From: a virus
Length of the DNA: 39,846 nt
IMG/VR virus record: IMGVR_UViG_3300009512_001213
Location: 1 to 39,846 of that record
Strand: one strand, 5' to 3'
A model generated the notes under the pieces. It made no database searches. It worked only from the letters and a program-made list of their open reading frames with translations, and was not told the DNA's origin. Position 1 is the stretch's first letter, and each line of letters begins with the position of its first letter. A program made the position numbers and the translations under genes. This document shows, piece after piece, positions 1 through 10,237 of the stretch.

Positions 1-960
1 ACTGTTGTACCAGTCTTCTGATCTTACAATGCCTTTATCTTTTAGATACTGATAGAACTCTCCGATCATTGGATAGTTAAACATAGAGAAGACTGTGTTC
101 ATTGAGAATTCTACTTGTTCTAAATCTCTAAACATAAGTAAATTGTTTTCTACTGCTCCCCAATCAGTTCCTTTGCGTAACCATTCTGCTCTCTCACCGA
201 AGTGATCAACTGAACAACTTACTTCTACTTTATCAAAGTGTTTCCATAATTCTAAAATGTCATACTTCTTGTATTTAAGTTGACTTGCGTTAGTATTGTA
301 TCTTAACACAGGCTTCTTGCCACGTCTAATAAATTCTTCTAACATTAAAAAATGTTCTTCAGTAAGCATTGGCTCACCGCCAGCAAAGTAACATAGTTCT
401 ATCTCATCAATATGTTCTATGACTTCTTCTAACACTGTGCCTGTTTGATCATCAGCATGTATTAAGATAGGGTGTTTAGGGTCATGATTGGCTCGCATCT
501 CTGCTCCCCATTGTGAACTAAACTCACTACCGCATGTACGACACTTGAAGTTACATATGTTACTGAAACGAATGTCAAAGTAATGCATATTAAAATCATG
601 TACATGACCATCTGCCCCTGTGTGAGGAACTAACTTGTCAAAGTGCTGACCAAAATGTTCTTTAGAATAGTTTCTAAAACTATGCGGACCTGCTTCTTCA
701 TGTTTATAACAGAAATCACATACACTGTTCTTTTTATCGTTTAACATATCTAAACGTAATTGTTTCATCTTATCATTGTTAAATGCTTCTTTCAATGATG
801 TCTCTTTCGTATTGCCAAATGGTGTAGTATAATCATTAGAACAACAAGGATAGATATCTCCTTTAGGAGTTACATTTAAATGCAACCAAGGGAACATGCA
901 GAATGTTTTACTTTCTTCTAGTAAATAAGTCTTGTCTACAATTGGTATTAAATCACTCAT
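1..960 (-). CDS. Radical SAM protein with N-terminal SPASM/twitch-like domain (C-terminus outside window)
   Basis: The frame is open from ATG at 960 to base 1, giving 320 codons; the 3' end lies outside the window. The N-terminal part shows the SPASM/twitch-like pattern FCMFPWLHL (Cys21), PCC (Cys39, Cys40) and CDFC (Cys81, Cys84). The radical SAM CxxxCxxC motif follows as CNFKCRTC (Cys136, Cys140, Cys143), and the SAM-contacting GGEP is at 194-197. Radical SAM enzymes use a 4Fe-4S cluster to make a 5'-deoxyadenosyl radical; the extra cysteines probably hold an auxiliary cluster. The gene overlaps the preceding 440-aa radical SAM gene by ATGA, so translation is probably coupled. It closely resembles that neighbour (both contain YFDIRFSNICNFKCRTCGS), which points to tandem duplication. 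The substrate is unknown; similar proteins occur in marine phages without an assigned reaction. Confidence 0.9.
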   Translation of the reverse strand, partial: MSDLIPIVDKTYLLEESKTFCMFPWLHLNVTPKGDIYPCCSNDYTTPFGNTKETSLKEAFNNDKMKQLRLDMLNDKKNSVCDFCYKHEEAGPHSFRNYSKEHFGQHFDKLVPHTGADGHVHDFNMHYFDIRFSNICNFKCRTCGSEFSSQWGAEMRANHDPKHPILIHADDQTGTVLEEVIEHIDEIELCYFAGGEPMLTEEHFLMLEEFIRRGKKPVLRYNTNASQLKYKKYDILELWKHFDKVEVSCSVDHFGERAEWLRKGTDWGAVENNLLMFRDLEQVEFSMNTVFSMFNYPMIGEFYQYLKDKGIVRSEDWYNS

Positions 961-2279
961 GGTCGTAAACTCTTTGGTACTTTATATAATGCTCCTAACT
1001 CTGGGAACGTGACCATAAAGTCTTCGCCCCTTAAAGTATCAATTCTTTTTATTTCTTCTTTAAACTCTAGTTGATTTTCATGCCATGTATGTTTAGAATT
1101 AAGCCATGGTATACACATTTCTATCTGATGTATATGAGTTTTCTTAAAGCCTAAGTCTGACATATATTTTATAGTCAAGTGTAACTGCTCTAGTGCTTGT
1201 ACTTTGTAATCTTCTGGTAAGACATGCACAGACAAGTGTTCGGGCGAACCCATGTTGTAGAGAGTCCATACGGGACTGTTAGGGGTATAGAAATGATTGT
1301 CTATCATGTACTTGTAAAAATGTGAGATAGTCAATGCATTAAATATACTGTAAACAGTGTTAACCTGAAAGCCTACATTTCGTGCTTTCTTTAGTTTCTT
1401 TAAGTTTGTCTCAATTGTTTTCCACTTAGTTCCTGATCTAATGTACTCTGCTTTATCACCCATGTGATCGATTGATGCATAAACTTCTATCGGTTTACTA
1501 AAGTGATGCCATAGTTTAAAGATATCACGTTTCTTATATTTAAAATTAGAAATGTTTGAATTGTATCTCAACTGTATATCAGTTTTATTTTTAGCAATCA
1601 TCTCATCAATCAACATGTAATGTTCTTCTGTGATCAATGGCTCTCCACCTGCAAAGTATGCAATCTCAAAGTTTGGTACTTGTTTTAATACTTCTATAAT
1701 AAATTCTTCTCTATTACCTTTTTCGATCTCCATTGCATACATGGGTAAGCCTGTTTGTTCACGTGATTCTAAATCTTCTTGTTCCCATTTAGAACTGAAT
1801 GCACTGCCGCATGTACGACATTTAAAATTACAAATATTTGAGAAACGAATGTCAAAGTATCTCATACGAAAGTTTATTATTCTTCCTGTATTCATATCTG
1901 TAGTTTCTATAACATCATTAAAATGTTTTTCCCATGCTATGTTACTCTGTGTTCTAAAACTTGGTACACCCTGATCATCATGTTTATGACAGTTAGAACA
2001 TTCTCTATTCTTTGTACCTTTAATCATGTCTAAACGTAACTTCTTCATCTTCGGAGAGTTAACAAGATCGGCAAGACTACTTCTATTAGAGTTACCAACA
2101 CCTTCGTTGTCTGCACATGAATGTCCAATACAACATGGAGCTCCTTGGCCAGTAGGTGTGGTATGTAAATGCACCCAAGGTATCATACAGAATGTATCTG
2201 ATCTTTTTAACAGCAAATCTTTTAGAAATGCTGCCTGCTGTTTATCTACAGCGGATTTGTTAGACTTGTCTGTTGGCAT
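957..2279 (-). CDS. Radical SAM protein with N-terminal SPASM/twitch-like domain
   Basis: A 440-aa protein. Residues about 25-110 carry the auxiliary-cluster-like pattern FCMIPWVHL (Cys31), PCC (Cys49, Cys50), Cys55 and CSNC (Cys94, Cys97). The radical SAM core begins at CNFKCRTC (Cys150, Cys154, Cys157), with GGEP at 211-214. In most SPASM or twitch enzymes the auxiliary cluster domain follows the radical SAM barrel, so the order here is inverted. The ATG at 2279 lies 34 bases inside the upstream radical SAM gene and there is no clear Shine-Dalgarno, so translational coupling is likely. An alternative start within the first residues cannot be excluded. The stop overlaps the next ATG (ATGA). 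It is the middle of three tandem radical SAM genes. The substrate is unknown; the glycosyltransferase-like neighbours suggest modification of a glycan or of a virion protein, which is inference. Confidence 0.93.
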   Translation of the reverse strand: MPTDKSNKSAVDKQQAAFLKDLLLKRSDTFCMIPWVHLHTTPTGQGAPCCIGHSCADNEGVGNSNRSSLADLVNSPKMKKLRLDMIKGTKNRECSNCHKHDDQGVPSFRTQSNIAWEKHFNDVIETTDMNTGRIINFRMRYFDIRFSNICNFKCRTCGSAFSSKWEQEDLESREQTGLPMYAMEIEKGNREEFIIEVLKQVPNFEIAYFAGGEPLITEEHYMLIDEMIAKNKTDIQLRYNSNISNFKYKKRDIFKLWHHFSKPIEVYASIDHMGDKAEYIRSGTKWKTIETNLKKLKKARNVGFQVNTVYSIFNALTISHFYKYMIDNHFYTPNSPVWTLYNMGSPEHLSVHVLPEDYKVQALEQLHLTIKYMSDLGFKKTHIHQIEMCIPWLNSKHTWHENQLEFKEEIKRIDTLRGEDFMVTFPELGALYKVPKSLRP

Positions 2280-3646
2280 AATTTATAAAAATCTAGTAAT
2301 TCAGGATACACACTTAGTATATCAGTTTCTCTACGATCATCTATTTCGTTAAAGAAGTTGTAGAAGTCTCTTCTACCCTCTATCAATTTGTCTTCGTCAT
2401 AATGTGTGTTTTCCATATAGTCAACCACACGTTTAAACTTTTCATATTCAATTGTAGTAAATCTGTCACTACGTTCATCATCTACATTATCTTTTAAAAA
2501 CTTTAATGACTCATGCATGTAAGGCATGAATTCTTCTTTCGGTAGAATGTTCATGTCATACATAATTGGATCTCTTAAATACGGAGTATCAAAACGTACT
2601 CTATGTTTGTCTTCTGTTTTCCAATCGTACCATCCGTAGATTGCACGCCACTCTAAAAACTTTTCTAATAAACTTTTAAAGTCTGTTACTGCTAATAGAT
2701 TAAATGTACACATAAATGTAACAGGAGAGTCTGTCTCTGTTAGATATGTATGTAAGTTCTTTTGAAACAGTTCTAAGTCTAATCCAGTTCTAATGTACTC
2801 TGCTCGTTCTCCCCAGCAGTCTAAACTAGTAAACATTTTAAAACTTTCTAGTTTGTTTTCATCGCATAATTTCTTTACTGAACTACTTAGTCGTTTTACT
2901 AATGCATTCTTTGTACCCAAGTTACTATTGATATTAAGTTCTAACCAAGGCATGGGTTCTTCATCAATCTTCTTAAGTAGTTTCCATGTTGATGTGTGCA
3001 TCGTTGGTTCGCCACCTGTTACACGTAAGATGTTTAAGTCTTTGTTCATCTCAGGCCACCATTCCCAGAACGCATCAACGTACGGGTTTTCTTCTTCACG
3101 TTCAAACAACTTCATCCAATCAACATCGTTTCTGTGATTCTTCACAGTTTCAATTGGACCGAATTGTTTTATCTCAGCATGATAACTTGATGAATACTTT
3201 GGATGACAGTAACCGCATTTAAAGTTACACTCGTTGCCGAAGTTAATCTCTAAGTATTCTGGATTAATGTTTTGATCCCAAGGGCCGTTGAGTGCTTGAT
3301 CGAATCGTTCTTCAGTAAAGATAGATGAATTACGTATGTGTCTATCTGATATATTGTCTTTGCCTAAGTCTTCAACGTTCCAGCAGTACTGACAGCCTTC
3401 AGGCCTTTCACCTTCAAGCATTTGTTTACGTTCCATTTTCTTTTGCCATGTATTATGTAACGCACTTGGGTTATCTTTTAATTCATGCAATGGAATCTTA
3501 TGTGGTTGAGGATGATAACAACTATGTGTCTCACCTGTTTGCAAGTACATAGTAACGTGTTGCCATTTAGCCAGACAGAAAGAAGGGGTCGCTTCTTCTT
3601 CGACTCTAATTTGTATTGTTCTTATTCTATCGGTTTCTTTTGACAT
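2246..3646 (-). CDS. Radical SAM protein, divergent member of the tandem trio
   Basis: A 466-aa protein. The radical SAM motif is CNFKCGYC (Cys140, Cys144, Cys147) after YLEINFGNE, and GGEP is at 211-214. The N-terminal cysteine region is recognisable but reduced: SFCLAKWQH (Cys24), a single Cys43 in HSCYHP where the other two copies have adjacent cysteines, and CQYC (Cys85, Cys88). It therefore resembles the other two but probably acts on a different substrate or holds the auxiliary cluster differently. The long C-terminal half is rich in charged and aromatic residues and has no motif I recognise. Its ATG overlaps the stop of the upstream glycosyltransferase-like gene (TAATG), and its own end overlaps the next radical SAM gene by 34 bases. 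No reaction can be assigned. Confidence 0.93.
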   Translation of the reverse strand: MSKETDRIRTIQIRVEEEATPSFCLAKWQHVTMYLQTGETHSCYHPQPHKIPLHELKDNPSALHNTWQKKMERKQMLEGERPEGCQYCWNVEDLGKDNISDRHIRNSSIFTEERFDQALNGPWDQNINPEYLEINFGNECNFKCGYCHPKYSSSYHAEIKQFGPIETVKNHRNDVDWMKLFEREEENPYVDAFWEWWPEMNKDLNILRVTGGEPTMHTSTWKLLKKIDEEPMPWLELNINSNLGTKNALVKRLSSSVKKLCDENKLESFKMFTSLDCWGERAEYIRTGLDLELFQKNLHTYLTETDSPVTFMCTFNLLAVTDFKSLLEKFLEWRAIYGWYDWKTEDKHRVRFDTPYLRDPIMYDMNILPKEEFMPYMHESLKFLKDNVDDERSDRFTTIEYEKFKRVVDYMENTHYDEDKLIEGRRDFYNFFNEIDDRRETDILSVYPELLDFYKLCQQTSLTNPL

Positions 3647-4590
3647 TACCAGCCTTCAATTTCTCTGATAATCTCCATTTCTGTAACTAAGGGACCTAAG
3701 TTTCTTTTGTCTGCATTGTAATGCCTCTTAAAGAATTTAGATTGATCAGCATCAAGCATGTTCATTGGTAGTCCCAACTTTGCTTTTAATTCTTCCCCTA
3801 TTTCTTTTGCTGATTCGACTGGATCACTATTCATGTATTGTTCCCACATAGCAGGATAGTTATCAAACCATTGAATGTCTGTATGTTCAAAGTCTGTTAA
3901 CATTGTCATGTATGTTCCGAGTCTTGCTCCGTAGATTGCCCAGTCACCGTTCTCTGCGTCTAAGCCTACGTTTTGCCAGATAGTTAAATTGTTTAAATTC
4001 TTATCTGCAACTTTAATTTTGAACTCGTCTACAGTTACTAACGCACCGCGGTCTAGCACCATCTTAACACCTTCTCTAAAGCCTGCTCTCCATGCTTGGA
4101 ATGCTGACTTGTTAGGGTAAGTAGTTGAATAGCAATCATACATTGCCCAGTATAATGAATCTGCTGAATTCATCATAAAGTCAACTTGAGTTGCTTCAGA
4201 GCCGTCAGTATGTTCGTGTGTAGTCATGTTCTTTACGTATGTTTTCGTCCATGAACTCATACCTCCATTACCATAACGTAAGCCATTAACGTTATTGATA
4301 GACTTCCATCTAAACTGTGCTTGTTGATATCTTGGGTCTTTGTCTGTAAAATCTAATTGAATATTAAAGAAGTCTTCTTCAGGCAACGTGTCACCATCGA
4401 TAAGAATAAATCGTTCAGTCTCACTTAATTCACCTGCGGCTTTGTGTGCTTCATCTGAGCCCAATACGCCGTCAACACGTTGTGCCCAAGGCACCATGTT
4501 TTTAATCTCTACCCAGAATTCTTCTTTCTGTGGTTCATCGTAACTTAGATAGATAACATCTAAATCTGCAACGTCAACAATGTTACTCAT
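3646..4590 (-). CDS. Glycosyltransferase-like protein (GT-A type, DGD motif)
   Basis: A 314-aa protein with no signal peptide or membrane segment visible. The N-terminus reads LDVIYLSYDEP, then a segment ending in RVDGVLGSDEAHKAA, then the strand FILIDGDTLP, in which Asp65-Gly66-Asp67 fits a DxD metal and nucleotide-sugar site of a GT-A fold. This arrangement is known in hypothetical or glycosyltransferase-annotated proteins of marine T4-like phages. The C-terminal half has many Trp and Tyr residues and ends EGW. It starts with an ATGA overlap with the preceding small gene and ends with a TAATG overlap into the first radical SAM gene, so glycosyltransferase and radical SAM proteins are likely made in similar amounts. 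Sugar donor and acceptor are unknown. It is not obviously similar to the other two transferase-like proteins beyond the DxD pattern. Confidence 0.85.
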   Translation of the reverse strand: MSNIVDVADLDVIYLSYDEPQKEEFWVEIKNMVPWAQRVDGVLGSDEAHKAAGELSETERFILIDGDTLPEEDFFNIQLDFTDKDPRYQQAQFRWKSINNVNGLRYGNGGMSSWTKTYVKNMTTHEHTDGSEATQVDFMMNSADSLYWAMYDCYSTTYPNKSAFQAWRAGFREGVKMVLDRGALVTVDEFKIKVADKNLNNLTIWQNVGLDAENGDWAIYGARLGTYMTMLTDFEHTDIQWFDNYPAMWEQYMNSDPVESAKEIGEELKAKLGLPMNMLDADQSKFFKRHYNADKRNLGPLVTEMEIIREIEGW

Positions 4591-4781
4591 CCTTTTCCTT
4601 TTTTTGTTTTATTTAAGGCTTCTTCAGTGATATTATCGTCAGGTGCTATTTCTGCATCAGCATTCATAAATCTCATACGTTGAATCAAATCCCAGTTAAT
4701 GCCTTCACTTGGTTTCCATTTAGATGATATATCATCTACGTCAGTCATACTAGATATGACTTCTTCTTTATCCGATTTCAT
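4587..4781 (-). CDS. Small protein of unknown function in the radical SAM/glycosyltransferase operon
   Basis: I prefer the ATG at 4781 (64 aa, MKSDKEEV...), because a GGGAG Shine-Dalgarno sits about ten bases upstream. An in-frame ATG at 4817 would add twelve residues (MLREFSIGSYKH) but has no good ribosome site and would deepen the overlap with the upstream gene from 14 to 50 bases. The protein is hydrophilic and acidic through its middle (PDDNITEEAL) and ends in a basic KTKKGKG tail. It has no cysteines and no transmembrane segment. The terminal codons overlap the next gene by ATGA, and its A/G-rich end supplies that gene's ribosome site (AAAAGGATG). I do not recognise the family. It could be an accessory or partner subunit; nothing in it looks like a leader peptide with a clear cleavage site. 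Confidence 0.7.
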   Translation of the reverse strand: MKSDKEEVISSMTDVDDISSKWKPSEGINWDLIQRMRFMNADAEIAPDDNITEEALNKTKKGKG

Positions 4782-5151
4782 GTGTTTGTAACTCCCAATG
4801 CTGAACTCTCTTAGCATCTTTTGATTTAAATTTATTCATATCTATAAGTATACTTATGTCATCTACAGAAGTCAGGATACCTGATGTACTAGGCTTATAT
4901 TTTTGTACAACTGCATTAGGTCTGTTACGATTAATACGTCCATCGATCACTTTGATGTCAGGTCTGGCTTCTGCAAACTGGCCGGCGTCGATGATTATGT
5001 AAGTGCCTTCATGTTTATCACATGTATAGCACTCTACCGATCCGTCTTTATTATAATATAATCTAAACTCCGGAGCCTCTATTTTGGGTGCTTCCCAAAC
5101 AGTAATATAGTCCTCATCGTTATCAGTCGGTCTGTTATTTTCTGAACTCAC
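4768..5151 (-). CDS. Conserved small protein of unknown function (127 aa)
   Basis: The protein starts with GTG at 5151, overlapping the stop of the upstream transferase-like gene as GTGA. The N-terminal 25 residues are acidic and probably flexible. Residues about 25-75 form a compact beta-rich block containing EFRLYYNKDGSV, a CYTC pair, GTYIIID and IKVIDGRI. Blocks of this FRLYY...GTY...VIDG type recur in hypothetical proteins of marine T4-like phages, so I regard it as a real conserved family without a known function. The two nearby cysteines could bind metal, but no other ligands are evident. Its position between glycosyltransferase-like genes and upstream of the radical SAM genes suggests it belongs to the same pathway. 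Confidence 0.8.
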   Translation of the reverse strand: MSSENNRPTDNDEDYITVWEAPKIEAPEFRLYYNKDGSVECYTCDKHEGTYIIIDAGQFAEARPDIKVIDGRINRNRPNAVVQKYKPSTSGILTSVDDISILIDMNKFKSKDAKRVQHWELQTHEIG

Positions 5152-5945
5152 TTAAAAGACTCCTCTAGTTTAGCAGAAAATGACTTGATATGATAGTGAA
5201 ACGGATACTTCTGTGGGATTGTATTCACTCTTAATGTATTTTGATTAATCTCATACACTAATGTATCAGTCCATTTTTCTGATGGCATACCATTTATAAA
5301 TTGCTTCATGTGTATCATAGACATGTCGTTAAAAGTTGGGAGAGTGGAATTCTCTACTCCTACGACATGACATGCATAAGCATAAATCCAGTCCGTTGTA
5401 GCCGGCTCGTCTGGATTACATTGAAGTGTGTCTCTGAACTCACTCCAGTTTTCAAAGACATGTCTTACGATGTCAAAGAATTTTTTTGCTGTTTCTGACT
5501 TCTTAAAGTAAGTAATAGCATTATATGTGTCAGGCAGTTCGTTATCGTCTATAAACCTACGATAGGTGCGTACATGCGATATATTTTGCTTGAAGTCACG
5601 TACTGATGTTGATACAACTAAGTCTTTTTCTCTTAGTATATCCCACCAATAATCGATTGATGCGGGTAGATACATGTCTGCTTCTAACTTGATTGTATAC
5701 TCATAAGGACTGGCTTCATATACTTGCCAATCATTGATAAGTTTCCAATCTGAGTCTGGTGCTTGATCACCGTGCGGAAGTTTAATCACTCTATGAAATG
5801 CTTTACACTTTGTCTTATCATCAGAGATCAAAGATACTTTAGCATCTGGCATTACTCTCATAATAGACTCTGCTAATTGTTCTGCACATTGGACATAGTT
5901 GACAAGGTCAGTATTCTGTGCTATAATAACAAATCCCTTATCCAT
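5148..5945 (-). CDS. Glycosyltransferase-like protein, paralogue of the upstream gene
   Basis: A 265-aa protein. The N-terminal strand KGFVIIAQNTDLVNYV is followed by a helix rich in Ala and Glu, a second strand AKVSLISDD, and the block YEASPYEYTIKLEADMYLP, where Glu88-Ala89-Asp90 stands where a DxD site is expected. The same block in the 289-aa neighbour reads YEHSPYEETLVLDVDYLV, so the two are clearly paralogous. The change to ExD may alter metal use or donor choice. A TDWIYAYACHVVG segment and a C-terminal PFHYHIKSF follow, the latter with the His pair often seen near the end of GT-A enzymes. The ATG at 5945 is inside the end of the upstream gene (8-base overlap). The product is probably cytosolic. 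Donor and acceptor are unknown. Confidence 0.83.
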   Translation of the reverse strand: MDKGFVIIAQNTDLVNYVQCAEQLAESIMRVMPDAKVSLISDDKTKCKAFHRVIKLPHGDQAPDSDWKLINDWQVYEASPYEYTIKLEADMYLPASIDYWWDILREKDLVVSTSVRDFKQNISHVRTYRRFIDDNELPDTYNAITYFKKSETAKKFFDIVRHVFENWSEFRDTLQCNPDEPATTDWIYAYACHVVGVENSTLPTFNDMSMIHMKQFINGMPSEKWTDTLVYEINQNTLRVNTIPQKYPFHYHIKSFSAKLEESFK

Positions 5946-6807
5946 TCATAATCCCCACAAATAAATCTTTATTCATTACATGAAAGTCCATATCTTTAAT
6001 AGACATATATTCTTTTCTCACTTTACTTTTCTTCCAATGATCGAACATAATTGTAAAGTCTGTGTTAAAGTCATATTGAGAACCATTACAAGGTATTTGT
6101 ATATCGTCTGCGTTCGGATACACTGATGTGTTCTTACCAACATGAACAAGACTCCATGGTATATAGTCACTCGGTACATCTGTGTGTCCATTAACAATTT
6201 TAAGTGCAATTGTTAATCCATAATCATTTCTATATACACCACCTACAAAACTGTGTATGTTTGCGTAGTGATCATAATTGTTTTGTACCATCTCTAATGT
6301 TTCAAAGATTTGTTTTGCACGATTAGATTTCTTAAACATAATAACAGTAGCCCACAATGTAACATAACTGTATGCACTCATCTTCTCTTGTGAGGCTTCA
6401 GGATGCATGAGCATGTGTGTATTACTATGACAACAGAATGTGTCAGACAAGTCAAACGTTTTTAATAATGTATCAGAGTTAACAAGGTAGTCAACATCAA
6501 GTACAAGCGTTTCCTCATAGGGACTATGTTCATATGCTTGGAATCGACCTTTATTAATCCATGCTGTTTGTTCTTTGATATTGCTTTTGTCTGGTTCGAC
6601 TTCGATGATAGAATCAAACGTATTAATATCTGCTGTTATAGTTTTAACTGATTGTGAATCAGTAACTAAAGTTGTAGGTAAGCCTAAGAACGACTCTATT
6701 CTTCGTGCGGTATAAACAGCCATTTCAGCATAGTTATATTTGCTTGAATTAAATGCAAATACAATTACCCCGCGGTTTGCTATCTTTTTCTTTCTAGTTC
6801 TTTCCAT
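5938..6807 (-). CDS. Glycosyltransferase-like protein (GT-A type, DVD motif)
   Basis: A 289-aa protein. After a basic N-terminus (ERTRKKK) comes the strand RGVIVFAFNS, a helix with AVYTARRIESFLG, the strand LPTTLVTDS, and then ETLVLDVDYLVNSD, where Asp104-Val105-Asp106 fits the DxD metal/nucleotide-sugar site of a GT-A fold. Later WATVIMFKKS and a C-terminal FHVMNKDLF are typical of this enzyme class in phages. The start at 6807 lies 28 bases inside the 101-aa gene, with only a weak ribosome site. No later ATG precedes the first beta strand, so this start is the most sensible one. It is paralogous to the 265-aa protein that follows. Likely role: transfer of a sugar to a virion or host acceptor, inferred from fold-level features only. 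Confidence 0.85.
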   Translation of the reverse strand: MERTRKKKIANRGVIVFAFNSSKYNYAEMAVYTARRIESFLGLPTTLVTDSQSVKTITADINTFDSIIEVEPDKSNIKEQTAWINKGRFQAYEHSPYEETLVLDVDYLVNSDTLLKTFDLSDTFCCHSNTHMLMHPEASQEKMSAYSYVTLWATVIMFKKSNRAKQIFETLEMVQNNYDHYANIHSFVGGVYRNDYGLTIALKIVNGHTDVPSDYIPWSLVHVGKNTSVYPNADDIQIPCNGSQYDFNTDFTIMFDHWKKSKVRKEYMSIKDMDFHVMNKDLFVGIMNG

Positions 6808-7085
6808 TCACTGTTCCACTCAGTCATTGTTTGATTATATGTTTTAGTAAGAGATTTTAATAGTTCTATTCGATCTACTTTTACCGGATTGTCAAACGTG
6901 TCAATTACGACTAGAGTTTCATCAGAAAATGAATTGAGAAATCCTATAGTTTGTGCATCGGCTTTCCACAAGCCACCTTGTTCTGCAATAACAAGTTTGC
7001 TACTATATTTTTCTTTTAGATATGCTTTTGCTGAGTTATGACTAAATCGAGCCTTCGCATCTTTTATAAGTGTTTTTGTATCCAT
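6780..7085 (-). CDS. Conserved 101-aa phage protein of unknown function
   Basis: The ATG at 7085 is preceded by GGGAG about eleven bases upstream. The protein reads MDTKTLIKDAKARFSHNSAK at its N-terminus, then a basic/hydrophobic segment (YLKEKYSSKLVIAEQGGLWK), then ETLVVIDTFDNPVKVDR, and ends in a charged helix with EWNSEWKELERKR. I recognise this as a small hypothetical protein that is well conserved in T4-like cyanophages and pelagiphages, with no assigned function. There are no cysteines, signal peptide or membrane segment. The gene is the first of the tightly overlapping run that carries the transferases and radical SAM enzymes. It follows the largest gap among the tail-side genes (73 bases) and may be more tail-related than pathway-related. 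Confidence 0.85.
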   Translation of the reverse strand: MDTKTLIKDAKARFSHNSAKAYLKEKYSSKLVIAEQGGLWKADAQTIGFLNSFSDETLVVIDTFDNPVKVDRIELLKSLTKTYNQTMTEWNSEWKELERKR

Positions 7086-7106: not shown

Positions 7107-7114
7107 TATTTAGA
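7107..7114 (-). promoter_or_regulatory. Possible T4-type late promoter (weak match) before the accessory operon
   Basis: On the minus strand the octamer is TCTAAATA followed by CTTGC, one mismatch from the T4 late consensus TATAAATA. Counting five bases of spacer puts the start near 7101, giving a leader of about sixteen bases that contains GGGAG before the ATG at 7085. A perfect 6-base inverted repeat (AATACT...AGTATT, 7093-7110) overlaps this site and the ribosome-binding sequence. It could be a regulatory hairpin or chance in AT-rich DNA. The position, at the head of the operon and after a stop codon, favours a real promoter. Confidence 0.35.
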
Positions 7115-7398: not shown

Positions 7399-8352
7399 TT
7401 AAGAGCCGGATACTGCGCCAGCTATCGAAGGTGTTCCCCACGATGCAGATAGATTTGTAGTCTCAGGTAATTGTACAGTACAAGTCACAGCAGAACTAGC
7501 AGATGCTACTAAGTCATTAGGAATTTCGTCCCAAACTGAGTAGATAGTAATGACTGAACCAGTGTCTCCGTTAGATTGTTGAGCACCATTAGATTTAACA
7601 ATATATCTAATGAATGATGACAAATAACCAGAAGGACCCGAGTCTGCTAACTGTGTGAATGCTGTTGCATTCGATGTTGATAATCCAAAGTATCCTTTGT
7701 TTGCATCTACTGTAGGAGTGTTACCACCGCCACCGACTTTAGTAATACCTGAATAGTTAGTTGATGCAATTGAAATTGTACCTGAGTTAGGTGCAGACAT
7801 AGTAACTGTTCCTGTGTCACTTGCTAAGTCTGAGAAAAGTAAGTTAATACCAGATCCAGATGGGTGTGAAGCAGTCATTTTGATTTGACCACCTGAGTTG
7901 AAGAACCACCTTGCGGCGTCGCCTGATGCAAACGTAATAGTATGAGTGAATGTAAGACCATTCTGCCATGAACTAGCACGTGTTGCTGTATCAGCAATAG
8001 TAGAACCCTGTGATGCGGCGTTTCTTCTATTATTATAAATTGTTGTTAAGTTTGTAGGGATAGCAGACAAATATGTAACCGTTCCACCGGCTGTCGGTGC
8101 AGTTACTGATGTAATTGATGACCCTTGATGTGTTGCGGCTGATGCTGTGTTAGTAACAAGAGAGTTCCATTGTCCTGTTGCTATGACAGTAGTTCCAGCA
8201 CTTACTTGTGATACAGCACTTTGACCATATCCAGCAGTTGTTCCACCAGTTGACCAAGTTGTGTTTAGTTTGTTAGCGCCAGTTTCTACTGTGGCACCCA
8301 CTAAGTTATTAAAGTCTGTTGCTTCGATTAAGCCGTTTTGTGCGTAACTCAT
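7399..8352 (-). CDS. Fibre-like virion structural protein (317 aa)
   Basis: The ATG at 8352 is preceded by AGGGA. The 317-aa product begins MSYAQNGLIEATDFNNLVG, a start style seen in tail or fibre proteins of marine T4-like phages. The rest is Ser/Thr/Gly/Ala/Asn-rich with short beta-strand blocks such as FTHTITFASGDAARWFFNSGGQI and a late VITIYSVWDEIP. Cys is almost absent (one, in AVTCTVQL). Low charge and high Thr/Ser content are typical of extracellular phage fibres or decoration proteins. It lies between the 405-aa fibre protein and the conserved 78-aa protein and probably belongs to the same distal tail structure. No enzymatic motif is seen. A baseplate-associated role is equally possible. 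Confidence 0.82.
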   Translation of the reverse strand: MSYAQNGLIEATDFNNLVGATVETGANKLNTTWSTGGTTAGYGQSAVSQVSAGTTVIATGQWNSLVTNTASAATHQGSSITSVTAPTAGGTVTYLSAIPTNLTTIYNNRRNAASQGSTIADTATRASSWQNGLTFTHTITFASGDAARWFFNSGGQIKMTASHPSGSGINLLFSDLASDTGTVTMSAPNSGTISIASTNYSGITKVGGGGNTPTVDANKGYFGLSTSNATAFTQLADSGPSGYLSSFIRYIVKSNGAQQSNGDTGSVITIYSVWDEIPNDLVASASSAVTCTVQLPETTNLSASWGTPSIAGAVSGS

Positions 8353-8367
8353 GTTATAATCCCTAAA

Positions 8368-9585
8368 TTATTTGATAGTAACAATGGCTTCTACTGTGCC
8401 AAAGTCAGTTGTTGTCTTGTCTTCTAATGCTCTGCCGATTACGTTGAATGCTGTTGCTTCACCTTCTTCAGCGGCACGTGCATGTCCTTCACCAGCACTT
8501 ACTAGTCGTTGACCTTTACGTACTGTTCCTAATGTTTTTACTCGTACACGTCCTGTCATTGCAACTGCAGGGTGAGTGTCATTTGATCCTGCCCCGTTGT
8601 TCATTAAGAACGCCATGTTGTCTGAGACAACACCAAATACGTCTTCACTTAACTCATATTTAACAGCAGTGACTTCATGTTCGCCGCCTAATTCTACAAC
8701 TGTTCCAGGAGTATATACATCATCTGCTGAGAATCGTTCAGCCAAATCCGCATATGTTGCTGATAAACGTGATCCAGTTGACAATGCCCAGTTACCTGTA
8801 ATTGTTCCTGCTGTTGTATTAGCTCCAGTAGTTAATACTGTTGCTTGAGTTTGTGTTGTTAAAATGTTACCACCATATGTTGGTAGATAAGCGGCTACGT
8901 TTGAGTTACTGTATGTACCTGCAAATGAGATTGGATCTCCGTTTGCATACATATATTTGTCTGTTCTGATACCATATAAGTTACCAGAGTTATTAATAAA
9001 AATACCACCTGTATCTAATAAGATAGCAGAAGCATTTGCACCAGTGTTACCTGTTACAGACCAAACACCAGTTAAAGTACCGGGTGTCGTTGCTGAACCT
9101 GTTGTGATCGCTGTTGTTTGCAGTGTACCGATGTTAGCAGTTGTAATAGATGCATCTGCAATAGTAGCATTAGCAGAGATTGTTAAATAACCTGCTGTAA
9201 AATTATTTGCTGTTACATCATTAGTTGCTGTAAAATTGTTTGCTGTAGCATTGCCTGTAATATTAACTGAGCCAAACGTTGTGTTACCACCGGATGCTGT
9301 TGATGTTAATGATAACCATGCTAATGCATTTGTTTCGCCGTCTGTAGGACAAACTTTCAATGTTGTAGTTGATGTGTCGTACCAGATTTGCCCTCTGAGA
9401 GATTGTGCAGGTGGAGTGCTTGACGCAAAGTTCTCAGTTACATGGACAAAGTTTGTATCTAAAGATTGACCGTACCCCGCGTAGTTTCTACCGGGCAGAC
9501 CTAATGAGGTACTGCTTGTATTAATAGTACCGTCAGCGATGGTCGTTAAGACTGTCCCATCACTTTTTACAATTGTATATGCCAT
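8368..9585 (-). CDS. Putative tail fibre/adhesin with YADLAE-type C-terminal domain
   Basis: A 405-aa protein. The N-terminal part (residues about 1-95) contains the blocks DGTINTSSTSLGLPGRNYAGYG, which leads into an NFVHVTENFA segment, and GQIWYDTST. These are seen at the N-terminus of many marine phage fibre proteins and probably dock the fibre. The middle (about 95-290) is a Thr/Ala/Asn-rich shaft with repeated TANNFT and TATN units. The C-terminal domain starts at ATYADLAERFSADDVYTPG and continues with GRVRVKTLG and FGTVEAIVTIK. YADLAE domains are common at the tips of phage fibres; some relatives resemble self-cleaving or chaperone-like ends, which I cannot confirm here. The ATG at 9585 has a GGAG ribosome site and its own late promoter 24 bases upstream. 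Confidence 0.88.
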   Translation of the reverse strand: MAYTIVKSDGTVLTTIADGTINTSSTSLGLPGRNYAGYGQSLDTNFVHVTENFASSTPPAQSLRGQIWYDTSTTTLKVCPTDGETNALAWLSLTSTASGGNTTFGSVNITGNATANNFTATNDVTANNFTAGYLTISANATIADASITTANIGTLQTTAITTGSATTPGTLTGVWSVTGNTGANASAILLDTGGIFINNSGNLYGIRTDKYMYANGDPISFAGTYSNSNVAAYLPTYGGNILTTQTQATVLTTGANTTAGTITGNWALSTGSRLSATYADLAERFSADDVYTPGTVVELGGEHEVTAVKYELSEDVFGVVSDNMAFLMNNGAGSNDTHPAVAMTGRVRVKTLGTVRKGQRLVSAGEGHARAAEEGEATAFNVIGRALEDKTTTDFGTVEAIVTIK

Positions 9586-9616: not shown

Positions 9617-10237
9617 TTAAATGGTAACTAAATTAGTTAGAGATTGTATTCTAACCGTATAATCTATCTGTATTTGCCTATTCAAGGACTTTTGCACAGG
9701 GTGAAATATTACGTGAGTTAAAAGTCTTGTAATTACGTTTCCGTTTGCATCTGTGCCGTAGTTTGCTAATAACCCTAACTCATCAAAAATGTAGTTAGAA
9801 TCTGTTTGTGTACTGTTATCAAACGCGGCTTGTCCTGCAGGCTCACCATAATCTAGTAAACATTGTACTAGAATATCAGTATACACACGGCCTGTAGTGT
9901 GAAATACTGTCATTTTGTTTCTTGTCGGGTCTAAGTTAAAAACACTTGTATCATCTACGATTTTTGCATATGTTTGATTATATAAAGCCGCATTCTGTCC
10001 TGTAGTATTAGGTGGTAAATATGTGATTACACCTGTTTCGTCAACTGATGCTCCACCATTACCGAATGCCATTTGATATATCTCGCCGTAGCCTCTACTA
10101 GATAGAGTATCTGCTATTGCTTCAGACATGTTTTCGTAATTGATTGCGTTCTTTGCTTCTTGTAAAACTTCGCCGGTGTTATAGTCTCTGATTGTCAGGA
10201 ATCCTTCCATTTTCAGAATTTGTTGATCGCCAGACAT
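9617..10237 (-). CDS. Conserved baseplate/tail structural protein (206 aa)
   Basis: A 206-aa protein. Landmarks are EGFLTIRDYNTGEVLQEAKN, INYENMSEAIADTL, a MAFGNGGASV block, TYLPPNTTGQNAALYN, FDELGLLANYG and the C-terminal HVIFHPVQKSLNRQIQIDYT. I recognise this as a conserved virion structural protein of marine T4-like phages, encoded between the large baseplate genes and the fibre genes. Whether it equals T4 gp8 or is a fibre-attachment protein cannot be decided here. The start is well supported: the upstream 51-aa gene ends with GAGGAGATAG and TAATG, supplying both the ribosome site and a one-base overlap. A late promoter sits immediately after its stop codon, so it is probably also read as the end of the upstream transcript. 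Confidence 0.88.
   Translation of the reverse strand: MSGDQQILKMEGFLTIRDYNTGEVLQEAKNAINYENMSEAIADTLSSRGYGEIYQMAFGNGGASVDETGVITYLPPNTTGQNAALYNQTYAKIVDDTSVFNLDPTRNKMTVFHTTGRVYTDILVQCLLDYGEPAGQAAFDNSTQTDSNYIFDELGLLANYGTDANGNVITRLLTHVIFHPVQKSLNRQIQIDYTVRIQSLTNLVTI

Follow-up and report, generated by a model that had tools for sequence, protein, structure and literature searches.

A conserved glycosyltransferase core with exchangeable radical SAM cargo behind the fibre genes of an uncultivated T4-like phage

Marine and Campylobacter phages have been reported to carry radical SAM (S-adenosylmethionine) genes, some of them adjacent to fibre genes, for which no role has been established. In pelagimyophages and cyanomyophages, a host recognition cluster described as non-syntenic follows the genes of a giant baseplate protein and of fibres and combines GT8-type glycosyltransferases with inserted radical SAM cassettes (PMC7029224). 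Excerpts of two further reports describe up to 12 radical SAM genes in T4-like environmental genomes (PMC5332604) and many, partly in exchangeable modules, in Campylobacter phages CP220 and CPt10 (PMC2853527), with proposed roles in Fe-S metabolism or host fitness. Here we analyse IMG/VR virus record IMGVR_UViG_3300009512_001213, a 39.8 kb stretch of viral DNA (hereafter the window), which carries an operon of glycosyltransferase and radical SAM genes at its minus-strand end, positions 7085 to 1. We class this operon with the fibre-adjacent host-recognition clusters, with which it shares place and gene classes; what is new is an invariant core, whose gene order is fixed and behind which only the cargo varies, whereas the published cluster is described as variable. 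Unlike the window, the T4-like environmental genomes and CP220/CPt10 are described, in those excerpts, with neither a glycosyltransferase core nor a fibre link, and our literature searches found no link between a fibre glycan and radical SAM enzymes.

Along the minus strand, T4-like baseplate genes are followed by the gene of a 6419-aa giant protein, B206, two fibre-like proteins and then the operon. The baseplate wedge and B206 proteins are closest to those of jumbo T4-like phages (Sinorhizobium Phosso, Agrobacterium Atu_ph07 and the Escherichia 121Q group), and the source is an uncultivated T4-like phage. The features are as follows, in the order of transcription.

9617..10237, minus strand: B206, structural-region gene and independent scan anchor; 52% identity to a Sinorhizobium phage Phosso protein
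8368..9585, minus strand: F405, fibre protein; PHROG virion structural protein match
7399..8352, minus strand: F317, fibre-like protein; leading acceptor candidate
7107..7113, minus strand: CTAAATA element, promoter-like; 22 nt upstream of the S101 start codon
6780..7085, minus strand: S101, first core gene; conserved small protein, fold unassigned
5938..6807, minus strand: GTa (GT289), GT8-type GT-A glycosyltransferase by AlphaFold 2 model and Foldseek
5148..5945, minus strand: GTb (GT265), GT8-type GT-A glycosyltransferase by glycogenin profile match; paralogue of GTa
4768..5151, minus strand: S127, small core protein in a conserved slot between GTb and D314
4587..4817, minus strand: S76, small protein; close relatives only, 18 loci
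3646..4590, minus strand: D314, GT-A-like glycosyltransferase (weak match); final core gene
2246..3646, minus strand: rSAM1, N-terminal-twitch radical SAM protein, 466 aa; CxxxCxxC at 140
957..2279, minus strand: rSAM2, N-terminal-twitch radical SAM protein, 440 aa; full-length NF033640 match; CxxxCxxC at 150
1..960, minus strand: rSAM3, N-terminal-twitch radical SAM protein; CxxxCxxC at 136; 3' end cut by the contig end

Every junction between the nine operon genes is an overlap, of 28 nt (S101/GTa), 8 nt (GTa/GTb), 4 nt (GTb/S127), up to 50 nt (S127/S76, or 14 nt with an internal ATG of S76), 4 nt (S76/D314), 1 nt (D314/rSAM1), 34 nt (rSAM1/rSAM2) and 4 nt (rSAM2/rSAM3). The nearly seamless operon that a first-pass annotation had drawn downstream of the fibre genes is thus as described, with rSAM3 truncated at position 1; in near-identical relatives the operon continues past rSAM3.

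The conserved core and its link to F317

IMG/VR was scanned from three anchors: rSAM1 (79 loci), D314 (80 loci, at least 595 viral relatives) and B206 (80 loci), the last chosen as a control independent of the operon's presence; 55 of its loci had 8 kb or more of downstream sequence. The core, S101-GTa-GTb-S127-D314, lies behind the fibre genes. From D314, S101-GTa-GTb stood directly upstream in 79/79 loci with enough sequence, and a radical SAM gene stood downstream in 68/69; from B206, the core was present in 50/55 loci and a radical SAM gene in 49/55. Because the same order recurs in 79/79 and 50/55 loci in two scans, the arrangement is far beyond chance, and the comparison of gene order proposed by the first-pass annotation found the genes not to be scattered in related viruses.

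The presence of the core tracks that of one fibre-like gene. Core and F317 occurred together in 50/50 of the B206-anchored loci with a core and were both missing from 5/5 without one (Fisher p 2.9e-7, which overstates independence because the loci are related), while F405 was present in 55/55, the five core-less loci included. Pairwise distances between core proteins correlate with those of B206 (rho 0.87-0.89) and of F317 (0.78-0.82), so the core is inherited like the structural genes; the corresponding values for the first downstream radical SAM protein, whose orthologue may differ between loci, are 0.24 and 0.26. The locus is made up of two units, an invariant glycosyltransferase core behaving as a structural module and an exchangeable radical SAM and sugar-enzyme cargo. 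The earlier proposal of one pathway is well supported in that the order is fixed, S127 and D314 are fused in two lineages, a GT-A fold is predicted and nucleotide-sugar genes are present, but it has to be divided between core and cargo. Serine and threonine make up 29% of F317 (28% in its family) and are also frequent in F405 (25%).

Among cultured phages, tblastn against 50,697 phage records left GTa, rSAM1, a diverged D314 and a diverged GTb unmatched at E 1e-3, and for rSAM2 the only matches, at about 25%, were to Vibrio phages K566/K567 and to one single-cell virus fragment. Hidden Markov models of the core families found nothing in the examined parts of HTVC008M (1-92.9 kb), P-SSM2 (90-139.9 kb), Atu_ph07, Phosso and others. 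That the families are known in marine phages, as first stated, therefore holds for radical SAM and glycosyltransferase genes generally (PMC7029224, PMC5332604), but not for the core families, which stayed unmatched in the cultured-phage searches made.

The element CTAAATA is found in the 60 nt before S101 in 60/163 distinct loci, compared with 1/162 for B206, and CTAAATAC occurs in gaps at about 120 times its density in genes, with 86/90 occurrences before S101. A diverged clade has sigma-70-type promoters at the same site (20/163 loci, against 1.9 in shuffles), near-consensus in some. Since the T4 late promoter TATAAATA shows no excess in the window (2 seen, 5.2 expected), we term CTAAATA only 'late-promoter-like'. 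With CTAAATA or sigma-70-type elements upstream of S101, these motifs suggest that the operon probably has its own transcription start. Separately, a perfect 12/12 TTGACA-17-TATAAT with an extended -10 lies antisense inside GTb (window 5899-5927, plus strand).

Transferases, radical SAM enzymes and cargo

The AlphaFold 2 model of GTa (predicted local distance difference test, pLDDT, 84) has a GT-A/GT8 fold, for which Foldseek returns glycogenin and UGGT (best, glycogenin, E 6.9e-8), and D104xD106 is invariant among its relatives. GTb is paralogous to GTa (hhalign 99.7%, E 1.5e-25) and its profile matches glycogenin by sequence (E 0.0017); on sequence comparison the two are ancient tandem paralogues, and 214/220 loci carry two GT8-type transferases. 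The GT-A fold links them to GT8 glycogenin, UGGT and LARGE1, relatives that glycosylate themselves or other proteins; the D-x-D motif of that group is kept in GTa but not in the window GTb. Both leave the Pfam GT8 model unmatched, and no glycosyltransferase family in Pfam matches the window transferases at E 1. D314, with an invariant D65-x-D67 and a model of pLDDT 85, has top Foldseek matches of GT-A or nucleotidyltransferase folds at template-modelling (TM) scores of 0.2-0.4, the best being the PBCV-1 capsid glycosyltransferase (E 1.7e-4), which is described as acting on the PBCV-1 capsid protein. We regard D314 as a GT-A-like transferase, weakly matched by its predicted structure. The expectation that the transferases would show a GT-A fold in structure prediction thus held for GTa, whereas for D314 the best matches are GT-A enzymes at low TM.

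Phage glycosyltransferases can also act on modified DNA bases, as in T4, and this precedent counts for a reading in which the operon hypermodifies and glycosylates phage DNA against restriction. We consider it highly improbable: the predicted fold is glycogenin/UGGT-like and not of the T4 DNA-glucosyltransferase type, the linkage is to fibre and not DNA metabolism genes, and the cargo is of the sugar-nucleotide kind.

Between GTb and D314 lies a protein of either about 110 aa or about 190 aa, and from a similar starting stretch, YFD-x-x-G-x-(I/V), we infer that the short and long forms are homologous. In two lineages (L352; L150/L398), D314 carries S127 as an N-terminal fusion; the two events are independent and suggest that the two proteins work together. 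Besides this fused copy, which is its second S127, L352 has a further S127-like gene flanked on either side by F317-like fibre genes (L352:12821-13120). Profiles of S101 and S127 found no relative in the PDB, and the core families matched nothing in Pfam or NCBIfam and no PHROG with a functional name. S76 and S78 are confined to close relatives. No precursor of a ribosomally synthesised and post-translationally modified peptide was found in the window: S101, S127 and F317 have no conserved Cys tail and S76 has no Cys.

All three window radical SAM proteins score above the curated cut-off of NF033640 (rSAM3 313.5, rSAM2 363.4 and rSAM1 314.8 bits, against 170), a family titled 'twitch domain-containing radical SAM protein', a name that gives no function, and whose members are here tied to a phage fibre module. 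All three keep CxxxCxxC, GGE and four conserved N-terminal Cys (as for an auxiliary cluster), and CxxxCxxC is kept in 605/605 relatives. A viperin match of the profile was rejected; it spans the SAM-binding stretch only. As for bacterial contexts, several of 18 loci with twitch radical SAM genes are phage contigs in metagenome-assembled genomes, and the truly bacterial ones are mostly Bdellovibrio-like; one adjoins a carbamoyltransferase-type gene. On a Bdellovibrio-like chromosome (L307:7947-11348), a twitch radical SAM gene lies beside one resembling the phage cargo radical SAM found after rSAM4, with a carbamoyltransferase-like gene nearby. Three contigs of bacterial metagenome-assembled genomes assigned to Rhodobacteraceae and Rickettsiales (L304, L310, L311) contain the full phage core; they are probably mis-binned phage contigs and possibly hint at the host. 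The sequenced 255 kb Vibrio phage K566 (L097) has five twitch-type radical SAM genes within a 37 kb stretch and is a possible laboratory system for these enzymes.

The radical SAM proteins might instead modify fibre residues directly, as peptide-modifying enzymes, with the transferases acting later or separately. The cultured jumbo phages nearest by baseplate genes lend this some support, having fibre-adjacent, peptide-maturase-type radical SAM genes and a candidate substrate tail: in Phosso and Atu_ph07 the same neighbours (baseplate wedge, giant protein, B206 homologue, fibre-like protein) precede several radical SAM genes. Their operons differ, however, in having peptide-maturase-like radical SAM enzymes, a cupin and a CHxSCHxSCH-tailed protein, and the glycosyltransferase core was not found in their examined parts. 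The jumbo-phage enzymes are of a C-terminal SPASM, PapB/DynA-like type and not N-terminal-twitch NF033640, the CHxxCH tail is absent from the window and its relatives, and S127 has no invariant Cys, which together leave direct peptide modification improbable.

Within 9 kb behind D314, 98 distinct loci hold 4.1 radical SAM genes on average, and 96/98 hold at least one. The other cargo families include NeuB, NAD epimerase/GDP-mannose dehydratase, UDPG/GDP-Man dehydrogenase, carbamoyltransferase (matched by two members; the scanned set of 60 includes one bacterial carbamoyltransferase), FkbM, GDSL, DUF6071 and B12-binding proteins, while the most frequent non-radical-SAM family, with 94 members, has no name. 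Behind rSAM3, the closest relatives carry, in order, genes for a DUF481 outer-membrane protein (L019:13886-14605), a fourth twitch radical SAM protein, another radical SAM protein, an unnamed protein and an epimerase. Given this nucleotide-sugar and sugar-tailoring cargo further along the operon, together with the GT-A fold, the unusual glycan suggested in the first-pass annotation is well supported.

Virion adhesin or host surface

With about even confidence, we propose that the operon glycosylates a virion adhesin in the cytosol, probably F317, with a sugar tailored by radical SAM enzymes, and that it joins a glycosylation module to an exchangeable sugar-tailoring cassette. We infer the acceptor, the sugar and the radical SAM role in the following scheme: (i) the two GT8-type transferases and D314 would act in the cytosol to assemble a short glycan on a fibre protein, of which the Ser/Thr-rich F317 is the likeliest; (ii) S127 would be an accessory or guiding domain of D314, and S101 an assembly or targeting partner; and (iii) the twitch radical SAM enzymes would work with epimerases, NeuB-like proteins and other enzymes of nucleotide-sugar metabolism to produce or alter the rare sugar used by the transferases. 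Exchanging the cassette would then change the glycan but leave the attachment core as it is. A cytosolic virion-protein route fits the fixed F317 linkage, the protein-glycosylating GT8 relatives and the Ser/Thr content of F317. A more specific version, in which the fixed five-gene module glycosylates F317 specifically and swappable radical SAM enzymes tailor the sugars and so diversify the virion glycan, is put forward only tentatively.

The main rival is a change of the host surface, in which the operon remodels a host surface glycan (O-antigen or capsule) to block superinfection or to free progeny, and its proximity to fibre genes reflects host-range modules moving together. This agrees with the published view of the pelagimyophage host recognition cluster, where GT8 and lipopolysaccharide genes lie between VrlC and gp14 (PMC7029224), with the operon's own promoters (of sigma-70 type in diverged relatives), with cargo of a surface-polysaccharide kind, and with the DUF481 gene of close relatives. 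Yet flippase, polymerase and membrane glycosyltransferase are absent from the window, and the core is not hypervariable but inherited with the structural genes and F317. No membrane segment was found in the window operon genes (maximum KD19, over a 19-residue window, 1.28), which disfavours membrane-bound O-antigen modification; phage gtr clusters of that kind encode multi-spanning membrane proteins. We judge host-surface remodelling somewhat unlikely. Between fibre and host surface, the two targets first suggested, the co-occurrence of core and F317 and the lack of membrane proteins lead us to favour the fibre as the candidate target.

Several observations weigh against adhesin glycosylation. 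The window GTb has E-A-D where most diverged relatives have D-x-D, and the fold match of D314 is weak, with TM below 0.4. Only five loci lack the core, and they are related; a single deletion could explain the joint loss of core and F317, which are neighbouring genes. Given the operon's own promoter-like element, expression may begin ahead of the structural genes. A DUF481 outer-membrane gene lies within the cassette of close relatives, and host surface polysaccharides, too, typically involve NeuB and carbamoyltransferase.

Separating a conserved glycosyltransferase core from variable radical SAM and sugar cargo, and tying the core to F317, allows a direct test: whether F317 is glycosylated, and by what. 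If adhesin glycosylation is correct, phages possess an interchangeable set of sugar-chemistry genes for their adhesins, which bears on host-range evolution and on enzyme discovery.

CHxSCH-tailed proteins in other phages

Outside the window, Phosso and Atu_ph07 have, in the same place as the operon, radical SAM genes and a protein ending in CHxSCHxSCHxSRSRR; in Phosso, family searches identify a cupin and peptide-maturase-like radical SAM/SPASM enzymes. The same CHxSCH tail is found in the unrelated jumbo phages SURPRISE13 and pPa_SNUABM_DT01, and CHxSCHxSCHxSR(G/S)RR in at least 120 IMG/VR stretches, forming the exact C-terminus in 150/150 open reading frames. Such proteins lie at L181:20415-21335 (minus strand), L179:21119-22009 (minus strand), L182:7060-7620 (plus strand) and L183:7025-7561 (plus strand), and in L184-L303. 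PHROG 35144, of unknown function, matches the tail; the proteins tested had no Pfam or NCBIfam name, and no literature on the tail was found. In about a quarter of tail loci (L184, L198, L199, L201 and others), the tail proteins come as a tandem pair, each of about 127 aa, with no radical SAM gene directly upstream within the available stretch, and their maturase may lie elsewhere. A radical SAM-like reading frame ends within 200 nt upstream in 65/71 informative single-copy tail loci, compared with 9% for other reading frames, and the scanned radical SAM proteins beside the tails are PapB/DynA-like. From its sequence context, the CHxSCH tail looks like a candidate radical-SAM-modified peptide tail of a phage protein.

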